From Neptunicoccus cionae (GTDB taxonomy: Bacteria > Pseudomonadota > Alphaproteobacteria > Rhodobacterales > Rhodobacteraceae), in contig NZ_BMKA01000001.1 in the NCBI RefSeq assembly GCF_014643735.1, positions 434,001 to 498,000 of the forward strand: a DNA stretch of 64,000 nt, read 5' to 3'. The position numbers and the translations under genes were made by a program. Shown one piece after another: positions 59,274 to 63,934 of the stretch (within the stretch, counting starts at the first letter, position 1; every line of letters begins with the position of its first letter). Below the pieces are notes generated by a model that was not told where the DNA came from, did not search any database, and was given only the letters and a program-made list of their open reading frames with translations.

Positions 59274-60110
59274 ATGGCAAATGGCGTGAAAAATCCCGCA
59301 GACGAAGCGACGCTCTCTTTTAAGGATAAGATGTCTTACACGGATTATCTTGGGCTGGACGCGATCCTGACGGCGCAGCATCCGTTGTCTGATGCCCATG
59401 ACGAAATGCTGTTCATCGTGCAGCACCAAGCCTCTGAAGTGTGGTTGCGGCTGGCGATATATGAACTGAACGCTGCGCGGGATTTGATCGCACAGAATGA
59501 AACACGGCCCGCATTTAAGATGCTGACACGGGTGGCGCGGATATTCGAGCAGCTCAACTCCGCATGGGACGTGCTGCGCACCATGACCCCGTCTGAATAC
59601 ACCCAGTTCCGCGATGCGCTTGGCCATTCATCGGGTTTCCAGTCCCATCAATACCGTCTGGTCGAATACCTTGTGGGCAACCGTAACCACACTATGCTGA
59701 AACCCCACGAACATCGCGGCGATTTGCATCAGGCGCTGGTTGAAGAGCTTGCCAAGCCGAGCCTCTATGACGTGGTCCTGCGCCATCTGGCACAACAGGG
59801 GTTTGCTGTCCCGTCAGAGGTTCTGGAGCGGGACGTTTCGGTGAAACTGCCTCATAATGACGGGGTTCAGGGGGTTTGGAAGCAGATTTATCAGGACCCG
59901 CAGGAACATTGGCTGGCTTATGAACTGGCCGAAAAGCTGGTGGATTTTGAGGACTACTTCCGTCGCTGGCGCTTTAACCATGTCACCACTGTGGAGCGGA
60001 TTATCGGCAACAAGAAGGGAACCGGCGGTACGGGCGGCGTGAGCTATCTGCAAAGCATGCTGAAAGTAGAGCTGTTCCCCGAACTTTGGTCTGTCAGAAC
60101 AGTCCTTTAA
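59274..60110 (+). CDS. kynA: Tryptophan 2,3-dioxygenase
   Basis: The 278-residue haem enzyme has the TDO pattern MSYTDYLGLDAILTAQHPLS (20 residues), HDEMLFIVQHQASEVWLRL (19, with the substrate-contacting H and R), SGFQSHQYRLVEYLVGNRN (19) and haem ligand His236 in NHVTTVERIIGNKKGTGGT (19), followed by GVSYL. It opens the indole ring of tryptophan to N-formylkynurenine, first step of the kynurenine route. Kynureninase and formamidase genes are not in the window. It starts at ATG 59274 and is monocistronic; typA lies divergent. Confidence 0.96.
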   Translation: MANGVKNPADEATLSFKDKMSYTDYLGLDAILTAQHPLSDAHDEMLFIVQHQASEVWLRLAIYELNAARDLIAQNETRPAFKMLTRVARIFEQLNSAWDVLRTMTPSEYTQFRDALGHSSGFQSHQYRLVEYLVGNRNHTMLKPHEHRGDLHQALVEELAKPSLYDVVLRHLAQQGFAVPSEVLERDVSVKLPHNDGVQGVWKQIYQDPQEHWLAYELAEKLVDFEDYFRRWRFNHVTTVERIIGNKKGTGGTGGVSYLQSMLKVELFPELWSVRTVL

Positions 60111-60259
60111 GGGCGAGTGCGCCAATCTTTGGAAGCAAATGCGCCACCGGTTGCCTTAGTTTTGCCCCAATCTGCCCAAATTATACCGTAGTGTTCGGAT
60201 AGAGGGGGGATAGGTCCGGGATTGGGACGAGCTTTCCTGGGCAAGTTTGAGAGGCAAAA

Positions 60260-60487
60260 ATGACAAACCGTTACATAACCTGCGCCCGCTTTGCCGGTGC
60301 GCAGTTCAAAGGCCGCGCCCGCCGGTGGGGGCAGTCCGAAGACGGTGCTGTCACCGTTGACTGGGTCGTGCTGACCGCAACGATGACCGTAATCGGCGGT
60401 GTTATCGTGTCACTGACGGTGGATGGAACCACTGATGTTGGCAACCAGATCGGGACGGTTCTGACAGAGAAAACTGTTTCGGAATAG
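60260..60487 (+). CDS. Small Flp-pilin-like protein
   Basis: The 75-residue protein has a basic N-terminal part (about 1-26), then EDGAVTVDWVVLTATMTVIG (20 residues), a single hydrophobic helix preceded by G and E/D as in Flp/TadE-type class III signal sequences, and a short polar tail. This GAVTVDWVVLTA pattern recurs in Rhodobacteraceae, often in multiple stand-alone copies. It may be processed by a prepilin peptidase and enter a pilus-like fibre, but there is no tad/cpa cluster in the window. AGAGGC precedes the ATG. It is monocistronic with 149 bp upstream and 186 bp downstream, both blank. Confidence 0.75.
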   Translation: MTNRYITCARFAGAQFKGRARRWGQSEDGAVTVDWVVLTATMTVIGGVIVSLTVDGTTDVGNQIGTVLTEKTVSE

Positions 60488-60673
60488 GCCCTTCGGACGG
60501 GGCAATTCTTCTGATCAAACGAATATCTCTGGTCGAGGTCAGGTGCCTCCGGCGGGGATATTTAAAGAAAATGGAGCCACAACGACCCGTTGCCTTTTGC
60601 CGGGCGGCGGTTTTTTTGTTGTGTGCTTGACTTTACCCCGATAGGCGCTGATGTCAGTCTGGCGTTATAGGGC

Positions 60674-61852
60674 ATGACAGGCAGGGCAATCGTGACAGAA
60701 CACACTCCGGATCCACAACTGCGCGAGGCTTTTCTGGGCGGAATGTCCCATGCAGCCTGTACGGTGAATATCGTGACCACTGACGGTGTTGCGGGGCGGG
60801 GCGGCGTGACGGTTTCGGCCATGACCTCTGTTTCGGCGGATTCTCCCAAGCCGACCCTGCTGGTCTGTGTTCACCACGAGGCGAGCGCTGCGCCGTTGAT
60901 CCTTGAAAATGGCAATTTCTGTGTGAACCTGCTGCGGGACGACCAGTCGTTCATCTCGGATACTTTCGCGGGACGGTTTAAAGAGGAATTTGCCGATAAG
61001 TTTGATTGTGCCGAATGGGCGCCGATGGCGACCGGTGCGCCCCGTGTGGTCGATCCGCTGGTGGCTTTTGATTGCAAACTGGTCAGCGCAGAACGGATTG
61101 GCACCCATCATGTTTTCGTGGGGGAGGTGCAGGATATTTTCACGGCCAATCGCGGCACGCCCCTGATATATGCCAACCGCGCTTACGGGCGCACGGTGCG
61201 GATTGATCCGGTCACGACCTTTGCAACATCCCAGTCGGATACGGCCCTGCGTGTCGGGTGTTTCCACACCATCGGCCCGTTTGTGGTGCCCCGTATTATC
61301 GGCGAGTTTACCAAGAATGACAGCACCGATCTGCGGCTGATGGACGGGGATCACCGCCGCCTGATCGAAGGCCTGCGGGCGGGTGATGTGGATCTGGCAC
61401 TGATGTTCGATCTCGATCTGCCGGATGATATTGAAACCGTGCAGCTGGCTGATTTGTCGCCCTATATCCTGCTGGCCGAGGATCATCCACTGGCGGCAGA
61501 ACCAAACCTCACTTTGGAAACGCTCACGCAGCATCCGATGGTCTTGCTGGATTCCCAACCTTCGGCGGATTACGCCCTGTCGATCTTTGCTGCAGAGCAT
61601 CTTACGCCGCAGGTCAAATACCACTGCCCGTCCTACGAGATGGTACGCGCGATGGTGGGGGAGGGGCTTGGCTATTCCATACTGGCGAGCAAACCGGCCA
61701 GCAATCTAAGCTATGATGGGCATTCGCTGGTCAGGCGGCCCTTGCCAAGCGACACGCGGCAGTGTCCTACGGTTATGGCCTACCGGCAGGGCGCAAAGCT
61801 GCCCCCTGCGGCGGAACCGTTTATGGAACTCTGCAAGGACCTGTTCAAATAG
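60674..61852 (+). CDS. Flavin reductase fused to LysR-type effector-binding domain
   Basis: The 392-residue protein has two parts. Residues about 10-173 are a flavin reductase-like FMN-binding domain: FLGGMSHAACTVNIVTTDG, GVTVSAMTSVSADSPKPTLL (20), FCVNLLRDDQSFISDTFAGR (20) and the C-terminal AYGRTVRIDP. Residues about 180-392 are a LysR substrate-binding domain: ALRVGCFHTIGPFVVPRIIG (20), LIEGLRAGDVDLALMFDLDL (20), LLAEDHPLAAEPNLTLETL and MVRAMVGEGLGYSILASKPA (20). No helix-turn-helix is present. I infer a flavin reductase whose activity is set by a small aromatic or acid effector, but the partner oxygenase is unknown. It is convergent with argE (9 bp apart). Confidence 0.88.
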   Translation: MTGRAIVTEHTPDPQLREAFLGGMSHAACTVNIVTTDGVAGRGGVTVSAMTSVSADSPKPTLLVCVHHEASAAPLILENGNFCVNLLRDDQSFISDTFAGRFKEEFADKFDCAEWAPMATGAPRVVDPLVAFDCKLVSAERIGTHHVFVGEVQDIFTANRGTPLIYANRAYGRTVRIDPVTTFATSQSDTALRVGCFHTIGPFVVPRIIGEFTKNDSTDLRLMDGDHRRLIEGLRAGDVDLALMFDLDLPDDIETVQLADLSPYILLAEDHPLAAEPNLTLETLTQHPMVLLDSQPSADYALSIFAAEHLTPQVKYHCPSYEMVRAMVGEGLGYSILASKPASNLSYDGHSLVRRPLPSDTRQCPTVMAYRQGAKLPPAAEPFMELCKDLFK

Positions 61853-61861
61853 GCAGCTTCC

Positions 61862-63025
61862 CTAAAGGGGGAGCCCTTCGACCAGCCGTTCGCTTAAAGC
61901 GGCAAGCATCCGGTCGCATTTCTCAAGTTGGTCGGCGCTGACAAATTCATCCGGTTTATGCCCCTGCGCCATGCTGCCGGGTCCACATACGACTGTCGGG
62001 ATGCCGACGCGACTGGAGAACAGCCCGCCTTCGGTGCCAAAGGCAACTTTCATCGTGTCATTCGCCCCGAGCAGGGATTTCACAAAAGCCACAACCGCGC
62101 CGTCTTCGGGGGTGGCAAGGCCGGGATAGGTGTTGGCGGTCATCTCGATGTCAATCGCAGCTTCGGGGGCAATGACGCGGGCGCGTTCTGCGATCTCTTC
62201 GGCGCGATCTTTGATCTCTTGCATCAACACAGTGGGATCATTTTCCGCCAGATTGCGGATTTCAAAGGTCACTTCACAGCGATTTGGCACAATGTTCAGC
62301 GCCACGCCCGCGTTGATCAGGCCCACATGCAGCGTGGTATAGGCCACGTCGTAATCAAAATCCCGCGCCCCCGTAGCGGCGAGCCGTTCCTGAATGCGGC
62401 GGATTTCACCAATCAGATCGGTCGCCAGATAAATCGCGTTCACGGCTTGGGGGGCAAGTGCGGAGTGCCCTTCGCGCCCGATACAGGTGGCTTTGGCGGC
62501 GGTCTTGCCTTTGTGACCCACAGCAACCTGCATCGAAGTCGGCTCCCCCACAATACACATGGCAGGTTTGAACGGGGCAGCTTCCAGCATGTCGATCAGG
62601 CTGCGCACGCCGATGCAGCCGATTTCCTCGTCATAGGAAAAGGCAAGGTGCAGCGGGGTTTGCAGGTCTTTGGTGCTGGCCTTCAAAGCCGCTGCAAGCG
62701 CGCTGGCCACGAATCCTTTCATGTCACAGGTGCCACGCCCGTAATAAAGCCCGTCTTCAAAGGTCAGTTGAAACGGTGGTTTCGTCCAGTTCTGGCCCGT
62801 CACAGGAACAACGTCTGTGTGGCCGGACAACAGCACACCGGGCCGGTCCGTTGGTCCTACGGTCGCGAAAAGGTTCGCCTTTTTACCCGTTTCATCGGGC
62901 AGCAACGTGACCTCGGCACCGGCATCCCGCAACAGACCTGCGCACCATTCGATCAGGTCCAAATTGGGATTGGCCGAGGTGGTGTCAAAAGCGATCAGTT
63001 TTTCAAGAATGTCTGCGGTTTGCAT
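61862..63025 (-). CDS. argE: Acetylornithine deacetylase
   Basis: The 387-residue M20 peptidase-family enzyme carries all metal ligands: His in LSGHTDVVPV, Asp in GRGTCDMKGF, Glu in FSYDEEIGC, Glu in CIVGEPTSMQ and His in AQGHKPDEF. The dimerisation domain is at about 180-295 (GREGHSALAPQAVNAIYLAT, 20). It matches the ArgE branch, which removes acetate from N-acetylornithine in arginine synthesis; some Rhodobacteraceae paralogues act on other acyl amino acids. It is divergent from the aldolase gene (141 bp) and not linked to other arg genes. Confidence 0.88.
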   Translation of the reverse strand: MQTADILEKLIAFDTTSANPNLDLIEWCAGLLRDAGAEVTLLPDETGKKANLFATVGPTDRPGVLLSGHTDVVPVTGQNWTKPPFQLTFEDGLYYGRGTCDMKGFVASALAAALKASTKDLQTPLHLAFSYDEEIGCIGVRSLIDMLEAAPFKPAMCIVGEPTSMQVAVGHKGKTAAKATCIGREGHSALAPQAVNAIYLATDLIGEIRRIQERLAATGARDFDYDVAYTTLHVGLINAGVALNIVPNRCEVTFEIRNLAENDPTVLMQEIKDRAEEIAERARVIAPEAAIDIEMTANTYPGLATPEDGAVVAFVKSLLGANDTMKVAFGTEGGLFSSRVGIPTVVCGPGSMAQGHKPDEFVSADQLEKCDRMLAALSERLVEGLPL

Positions 63026-63166
63026 GGGCGTGTCCTGCTAAAGAAGTTTTGAGATGTTCCTAACCGAAGCGCACGGAGATTGGAAATAGCCTTCCCGTCA
63101 GAGTGGTGTTTTGTCAGGGGATATGGTTTCTGGCTGTTATCGTCACATTAGCGGGAGGGAAAGATT

Positions 63167-63934
63167 ATGGCAGCGCCGGTAAACACACTGAAGGAAAAAC
63201 TTGCAGCGGGGCAGTTGCAGACAGGATGCTGGCTGACGCTCGCGCAGCCCTACGCAAGCGAGATTGCAGGGACTGCCGGATTTGACTGGGTGCTTATCGA
63301 CGGGGAACATGCGCCAAACGGGATTGGCCAGATTTCCAGCCAGATCGGCGCGTTGCAAGGATCGAAGTCAGCAATCGCGGTGCGGGTGCCTGTTGGGGAG
63401 GACTGGATCATCAAACAGGTGCTTGATGCGGGGGCGCAGACTGTTATGGTTCCAATGGTTGAAACCGGCGCACAGGCGCGCGCGATGGTGCGCGCGACGC
63501 GGTACGCGCCGGATGGCGTGCGCGGTGTCGGGGCTTCGGTGGGGCGGGCGTCCCATTGGACTGGTATTGCCGATTATTCCACCACGGCAAATGCGCAGAT
63601 GTGCCTGATCGTACAGGTGGAGGCCCAGCGGGGCTTGGAAAATCTTGATGACATCCTCGCTGTAGAGGGCGTGGATGCGGTGTTCATCGGACCTGCGGAT
63701 CTTGCGGCGGACATGGGCTATCTCGGGGAATTGGACGCGCCTGAGGTAATGGCCGCGATGGAAGATGCTGTGCTGCGTATCCGTGCGGCGGGTAAAGCGG
63801 CGGGGATCATGTGTACCGACCCCGATTTTGCACAACAAGCGATTAGCTGGGGCGTGAATTTTGCTGCTGTCGCTGTGGATGCGATCACTTTGACCACCGG
63901 ATTGCGCAGGGCTGCGTCAGCGTTCAAGGACTAA
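63167..63934 (+). CDS. HpcH/HpaI-type class II aldolase
   Basis: The 255-residue barrel enzyme has the HpaI signatures GFDWVLIDGEHAPNG with the catalytic His, VRVPVGEDWIIKQVLDAGAQ (20) with the Arg, TVMVPMVETGAQARAMVRAT (20), metal ligands Glu in IVQVEAQRGLENLDDI and Asp in FIGPADLAADMG. It cleaves or forms 4-hydroxy-2-keto acids such as 4-hydroxy-2-oxoheptane-1,7-dioate with pyruvate as a partner, using Mn or Mg. No homoprotocatechuate genes are nearby. GGAGGG precedes ATG 63167. The remaining 66 bp of the window after the stop hold nothing I can assign. Confidence 0.9.
   Translation: MAAPVNTLKEKLAAGQLQTGCWLTLAQPYASEIAGTAGFDWVLIDGEHAPNGIGQISSQIGALQGSKSAIAVRVPVGEDWIIKQVLDAGAQTVMVPMVETGAQARAMVRATRYAPDGVRGVGASVGRASHWTGIADYSTTANAQMCLIVQVEAQRGLENLDDILAVEGVDAVFIGPADLAADMGYLGELDAPEVMAAMEDAVLRIRAAGKAAGIMCTDPDFAQQAISWGVNFAAVAVDAITLTTGLRRAASAFKD

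Follow-up and report, generated by a model that had tools for sequence, protein, structure and literature searches.

A flavin reductase joined to a LysR-type effector-binding domain in Neptunicoccus cionae and its relatives, a probable effector-tuned enzyme

In the reductase component C1 of p-hydroxyphenylacetate 3-hydroxylase (HPAH) from Acinetobacter baumannii, a flavin reductase domain is followed by a C-terminal domain of regulatory type, which we take to be MarR-like. LysR effector domains serve as the sensor part in a very large family of regulators and are known mainly within transcription factors, among them HinK, whose effector is histamine or imidazole-4-acetate; to our knowledge, no enzyme is known to use such a domain as its sensor. 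Papers cited in PMC6165268 refer, in their titles, to a need for substrate and to an autoinhibitory C-terminal domain in HPAH C1. The flavin reductases HpaC, RutF, TftC and CobR have the PF01613 domain, and IacG of the indole-3-acetate iac operon is a stand-alone reductase, given as 183 amino acids (aa) for P. xenovorans in a passage of PMC11676955. The window analyzed here, a stretch of 64,000 nucleotides (64 kb) of Neptunicoccus cionae, contains an open reading frame (ORF) of 392 aa, running from an ATG start through to the stop codon, in which a flavin reductase of this kind is joined to a LysR effector-binding domain (Table 1; below, the fusion). No description of a reductase–LysR fusion or of its gene set, and no paper on the associated family DUF1028, was found in full-text searches of the open-licence literature.

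Pfam analysis of the encoded protein showed a complete Flavin_Reduct domain (PF01613; 112.8 bits against a cut-off of 27, profile positions 1–151 of 153) followed by LysR_substrate (PF03466; 130.2 bits, profile positions 5–208 of 209). No third family, including the helix-turn-helix (HTH), was detected at E 0.001; accordingly, an HTH is absent, and the fusion is not a LysR regulator. This agrees with the sequence-only reading, which had described one frame composed of a flavin reductase and a LysR effector domain without the DNA-binding part. The linker occupies the place of the HTH and linker helix of a LysR regulator; residues 166–187 are predicted with pLDDT below 50, and columns 176–190 are the most variable of the alignment by column entropy. 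Comparison of the predicted structure with solved structures using VIA-align indicated a complete effector-domain fold, which supports, at the level of the fold, the intact domain expected earlier. In the closest solved regulators, 3fzv, 6m5f and 2ql3, the alignment starts only at residues 94, 92 and 101, respectively; the complete effector fold is like that of the HinK-type regulators (3fzv, 6m5f), and the fusion carries an enzyme where these have the HTH and linker helix.

Among described reductases, the closest parallel is HPAH C1 (PDB 5zc2, 5zyr), which has the same reductase fold and the same arrangement of a reductase domain with a C-terminal domain of regulatory type, a regulatory role that is presumed for the fusion. 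The NCBIfam model of C1, NF045919, scored 46.8 bits (cut-off 340), its match being confined to residues 20–175, i.e., the reductase part, and the fusion is outside the C1 family because its C-terminal domain differs. Hence, the parallel drawn in the sequence-only reading held for the reductase and for the position of a regulatory-type domain, but not for the kind of sensor. The closest NCBIfam models were those of RutF (133.9 bits, cut-off 254.75) and HpaC (111.6 bits, cut-off 205.95), both below the equivalog cut-offs; unlike the fusion, these models, with 156 and 154 positions, leave no room for a sensor.

Relatives were collected by a scan with one genome per species, by whole-genome searches within an order, a class and a family, and by a plasmid search. 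The whole-genome searches overlap in part, genomes G005 and G003 being the centers of their own searches; the order of Amylibacter cionae (G001) was taken as Rhodobacterales, and counts may be low in the 390- and 385-genome searches, in which at most 4 candidates per genome were scored. The reductase–LysR order in one frame was found at 16 of the 18 loci of the species-level scan, with 45–96% identity to the window protein; the other two were L017, where a 3.5-kb contig carries the reductase part alone, and L018, a weak match. The fusion is present in at least 9 members of the 390-genome set (order of G001), in at least 3 of the 385-genome set (class of G005; three more match through the reductase part only), in 1 of 12 genomes of Rhodovibrionaceae, the family of G003 (three more match through the reductase part), and on 6 of 72,556 plasmids; in whole genomes it is rare and patchy. 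Plasmid records naming the product mostly give ‘LysR substrate-binding domain-containing protein’ and in one case ‘hypothetical protein’; under the LysR-only name, the enzyme half is hidden.

The resulting set comprises 31 fused loci, including the window, and 29 distinct proteins, as the reductase and sensor sequences of L041, L044 and L058 do not differ. Identity to the window protein is 96% for L002 from Amylibacter cionae and 50% for L041 from Paracoccus versutus. A join by chance or by an error of sequencing or assembly is excluded by the presence of one frame at each of the 31 loci, and no free effector gene lacking the HTH was seen beside a separate reductase in the fetched loci, so the sequencing error envisaged earlier as a source of the joined frame fails as an explanation. 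The three nearest relatives are 94–96% identical across the entire length. At dS of 0.67–0.99 between them and the window protein, dN/dS (NG86) is 0.010–0.018 for the reductase and 0.035–0.076 for the sensor, which shows purifying selection and maintenance of both halves and again speaks against an artefact.

Neighboring genes were counted for the 31 fused loci within the fetched flanks, the length of which varies by locus. A candidate partner oxygenase was found nearby in 23 of them: an HpaB-type oxygenase in 15, a Rieske alpha subunit (RieskeA) in 9 (3 with HpaB and 6 without it) and an acyl-CoA-dehydrogenase-fold enzyme in two (L042, and L016 together with its extension L118). An HpaB or acyl-CoA-dehydrogenase-fold enzyme is linked in 17 loci (15 + 2). 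Recurrence of the two-domain order with oxygenase genes beside many copies had been anticipated by the sequence-only reading; its proposal of an unlinked oxygenase partner fits the window lineage only. Genes of RidA (17/31), DUF1028 (18/31), M20 deacylase (17/31, a 26% match in L007 being left out) and a relative of the L039 LysR regulator (15/31) were also found. On Paracoccus plasmids, the order is an amino-acid-type ABC transporter, HpaB, RidA, DUF1028, M20, LysR and the fusion, followed by HutD, which is encoded on the other strand. Loci L054, L056 and L059, without HpaB, have the order RieskeA, fusion, RidA, DUF1028, and Fe-ADH, RieskeA, the fusion, GNAT, RieskeB and M20 occur together in L062 (genome G327), L004 and L005.

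The origin of the sensor was analyzed by ranking the LysR proteins of each genome and by a tree. Another LysR protein matched by the window sensor at E 1e-10 was found in 8 of 13 fused-gene genomes; the best one adjoins cluster genes in seven of these eight and lies on a separate contig in G126, and in G276 the top three matches are all cluster-linked. Those genomes encode 23–74 LysR effector domains each when the fusion is counted (E 1e-8). In G327, G040, G187, G567 and G005, no other match to the window sensor was found at E 1e-10. In the tree, the regulators nearest to the fused sensors are those of L014, L071, L109 and L070, each divergent from HpaB, RieskeA or a reductase gene preceding HpaB. 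The genome-wide ranking carries the argument, since the tree background was small (the four next-best LysR proteins of the same genomes). Judged from these comparisons, the sensor is a member of a wider subfamily of pathway LysR regulators. Copying of the sensor from the regulator beside the fusion was rejected: at 13 loci (L044 and L058 dropped as copies of L041), the adjoining regulator is 27–36% identical to the fused sensor and ranks only 4–29 of 32.

The best explanation of these data is probably that the fusion is an effector-tuned flavin reductase, with candidate oxygenases in most loci and a sensor closest to regulators divergent from such genes. The N-terminal domain would reduce FMN or FAD with NAD(P)H, and the reduced flavin would feed an oxygenase in a pathway for aromatic or N-heterocyclic/N-methyl compounds. 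The C-terminal domain, corresponding to the effector half of a LysR regulator with the reductase in place of the DNA-binding half, may bind a substrate or intermediate of the pathway, and closure around the ligand would raise or unlock flavin reduction or transfer. NADH would then be spent, and H2O2 made, only with substrate present. The identity of the ligand, its binding and the direction of the effect are inferred. Retention of the joined form in many relatives argues that the enzyme is probably switched or tuned directly by the degraded compound. By analogy, the control logic would match that of HPAH C1, and the function proposed in the sequence-only reading is plausible; the LysR effector domain seems to be used here as an allosteric part of an enzyme. 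Leads to the substrate are imidazole-acetate, the HinK ligand, and indole-acetate, the iac substrate; homarine was considered on account of Rieske and OYE-type genes and was not settled upon.

If this is true, NADH oxidation would be a direct in-vitro read-out of what a LysR-type domain senses, and the fusion would join HPAH C1 as another way in which nature avoids wasteful flavin reduction. It would also offer a handle on an uncharacterized Rieske/HpaB–RidA–DUF1028 pathway, the Rieske type of which was found in a fifth (77/390) of the sampled genomes of one order.

A number of observations weigh against the effector-tuned reductase. None of the three kinds of oxygenase was found in 8 of the 31 loci, namely, the window, L001, L002, L003, L006 (a short contig), L007, L008 and L055. 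By tblastn, no HpaB, RieskeA or IacA-like gene was found within the 64-kb window. HpaB of the L012 type occurs in 9 of the 390 genomes and the fusion likewise in nine, both being present in only two (G276, G366); nine fused-gene genomes, among them G001 and G002, contain no HpaB over the cut-off, with weaker matches in G001 and G005. Linkage to RieskeA is weaker as evidence because RieskeA is common: at E 1e-140, it was found in 77 of these 390 genomes, of which 7 belong to the 9 fused-gene genomes and 70 lack the fusion. Unfused sister reductases adjoin HpaB genes in L043, L068 and L071, so the sensor is dispensable. The low rank of the adjoining regulators also counts against the effector-tuned reductase, and the model of the whole protein is moderate (pLDDT 73, pTM 0.48), too low to fix domain packing.

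Part of this evidence bears on a reading in which the sensor has no effector and serves as a docking or oligomerization module, pairing reductase dimers or tethering the reductase to the oxygenase. The disordered linker of the model, the unfused sisters beside the same kinds of oxygenase and the faster evolution of the sensor (mean column entropy 1.32 against 0.74 for the more conserved reductase half) would suit such a module. However, low-entropy sites of the sensor include C196–T199, E322, R325, V328 and G331–G333, T199 shares an alignment column with a threonine of CysB that is presumably a sulphate ligand, and a pure tether would need no kinship with pathway regulators; we regard this reading as unlikely.

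Quite improbable is the suggestion that the fusion modulates transcription, the HTH-less domain entering mixed oligomers with the pathway LysR regulator and adjusting it by the flavin/NADH state. Membership of the sensor in the subfamily of these regulators and the L039-related LysR genes at 15 loci are consistent with it, but five fused-gene genomes have no other matching LysR protein, the co-located sensors are only distantly related and it is the reductase half that is the more conserved.

For Rieske-type loci, it is also conceivable, though doubtful, that the fusion itself donates electrons to the Rieske oxygenase in place of a ferredoxin-type reductase, which is compatible with effector tuning. 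PrnD is a Rieske enzyme. Its described interaction with PrnF, stated in a passage of PMC11112847, is a precedent. RieskeA lies directly upstream of the fusion in 7 of the 31 loci, and a search with one PaaE query showed no Fer2-type reductase in their vicinity. Of the nine fused-gene genomes lacking HpaB, seven contain RieskeA. However, RieskeA mostly occurs in genomes without the fusion, and the searched fusion-less RieskeA loci likewise show no Fer2 reductase in 1.5-kb flanks, so another donor must exist. Among the best matches of the RieskeA search in the 390 genomes (30 loci, L087–L116), RieskeA joins RidA/DUF1028 in 21 (1.5-kb flanks), 19 of which lack the fusion. Since RieskeA also stands with RidA/DUF1028 at loci without it, the fusion resembles an accessory gene that was inserted into a pathway already in place. 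Loci among L088–L115 in which RieskeA adjoins both RidA and DUF1028 (e.g., L089, L091, L092 and L103) represent a pathway without an assigned substrate.

The clearest partner assignment of the set for the effector-tuned reductase comes from the uncultured Erythrobacter G005, in which the fusion lies within a same-strand run matching much of the iac set (L118:1-6365, L016:1-9067). The first part of the run encodes an amidase, an acyl-CoA-dehydrogenase-fold enzyme (IacA-like), SnoaL, Rieske alpha and beta subunits, an SDR and a Fer2 reductase; then come genes for an enzyme of the muconate cycloisomerase type, a muconolactone isomerase and a catechol dioxygenase, among others, and after these the fusion and a sodium:solute symporter. 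Thus, an iac-like run of the indoleacetate type is joined here to genes of catechol ortho-cleavage. IacA is a group D flavin oxygenase requiring the flavin reductase IacG, according to a passage of PMC7225977, and tblastn with the reductase half of the fusion itself as query found no second flavin reductase in 29 kb of the run. As the only flavin reductase found there, the fusion is assigned, by gene content, to the slot of IacG.

Phylogenetic analysis of the sensor grouped 30 of the 31 fused rows with support of 86/95 (the branch was not starred), Aminobacter L042 standing apart. A single clade of all fused rows was not rejected (p-AU 0.51, with L044, L058 and the long-branched regulator of L063 dropped), which is no proof of one origin. 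The reductase tree, which has long branches, required three changes of the fused state. In G567 (L061:4053-4553, L060:10599-11096), fused and unfused reductase copies are present, and the reductase tree places the two as sisters (99/94), which shows that loss or gain of the sensor is possible. It is tentatively suggested, with somewhat less than even confidence, that a flavin reductase took up the effector domain of a LysR regulator, perhaps in a single event, and that this domain now controls an enzyme rather than a promoter. The compound would then be sensed twice in one pathway, by LysR for expression and by its fused cousin for the supply of reduced flavin, and the module would have passed among unrelated oxygenases (HpaB, Rieske and IacA-like), with direct supply to Rieske enzymes as one of its uses.

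In the window lineage, two related genomes, those of Amylibacter cionae (G001) and Neptunicoccus sediminis (G002), have their pathway-type genes split over three loci: the fusion with M20; RidA, DUF1028, LysR and an OYE-type enzyme; and RieskeA. Since kin genomes carry RieskeA, and L062, L004 and L005 join it to the fusion, a Rieske oxygenase is most likely the client here, perhaps via reduced flavin, for which PrnF and PrnD offer a precedent, with the caution that RieskeA is frequent in the order; the partner in the organism of the window itself is deduced from these relatives. The Fe-ADH, Rieske and GNAT genes that adjoin the fusion in L062, L004 and L005 are missing beside it in the window and L001–L003, and tblastn with cluster reference proteins found no Rieske or Fe-ADH remnant in the gap 60111–60673. 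The lack of a partner of known kinds nearby could point to a functionless relic of a lost pathway, but this is most improbable and largely refuted by omega of 0.010–0.076 across both domains at the divergence given above, and RieskeA, RidA, DUF1028 and LysR are present elsewhere in the two kin genomes.

Table 1. Positions of the fusion, its parts and adjacent features in the window.
Feature	Position	Strand	Evidence
Flavin reductase + LysR effector-binding domain fusion, 392 aa	60674..61852	+	ORF, Pfam, relatives, dN/dS
FMN-type flavin reductase domain, residues 24–173	60743..61192	+	
Variable linker, residues 174–188	61193..61237	+	model pLDDT, column variability
LysR effector-binding domain, residues 189–391	61238..61846	+	
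Tryptophan 2,3-dioxygenase	59274..60110	+	conserved upstream neighbor in L001, L002, L003, L005, L062
Terminator-like hairpin then T run, between tryptophan dioxygenase gene and fusion	60587..60610	+	consensus scan
M20 deacylase, annotated acetylornithine deacetylase, convergent with fusion	61862..63025	-	profile + tblastn matches

The order tryptophan 2,3-dioxygenase, fusion, M20 deacylase and HpcH aldolase (59274–63934 in the window) is kept in L001–L003. The M20 deacylase is 56% identical to that of the Paracoccus HpaB operon L039 and perhaps belongs to the same pathway. The tryptophan 2,3-dioxygenase is only putatively linked to the fusion in function. The hairpin weakly suggests that the fusion is transcribed separately from the dioxygenase gene, four terminator-like sites being present in the region against a shuffle mean of 2.1. 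In Neptunicoccus L003, the 2-kb gap between these two genes contains an extra LysR HTH match (L003:4953-5201, minus strand, 36% over 85 aa); no such match was found in the 0.56-kb gap of the window. Upstream in the window, reading by eye points to two ORFs, one resembling an elongation-factor GTPase and one a glutamate dehydrogenase.

Two further architectures were observed among the relatives. In genomes G420, G774 and G775 of the family of G003, a related reductase (57–60% identical) is fused to a RidA (Ribonuc_L-PSP) domain, which replaces the sensor at the C-terminus (L064:9819-10817, L066:10541-11536, L067:9791-10798; the RidA domain was identified by Pfam in L064 and L066 and by eye in L067). 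The neighbors are alike, with HpaB, DUF1028 and LysR, which ties the reductase to the HpaB–RidA step independently of the sensor. A distant fused form with 44% identity is encoded on the Aminobacter plasmid pAA02 (L042:9004-10182), with genes for glutamine synthetase, APC permease, FAD oxidoreductase and aminomethyltransferase as neighbors and a separate second flavin reductase about 6 kb away.
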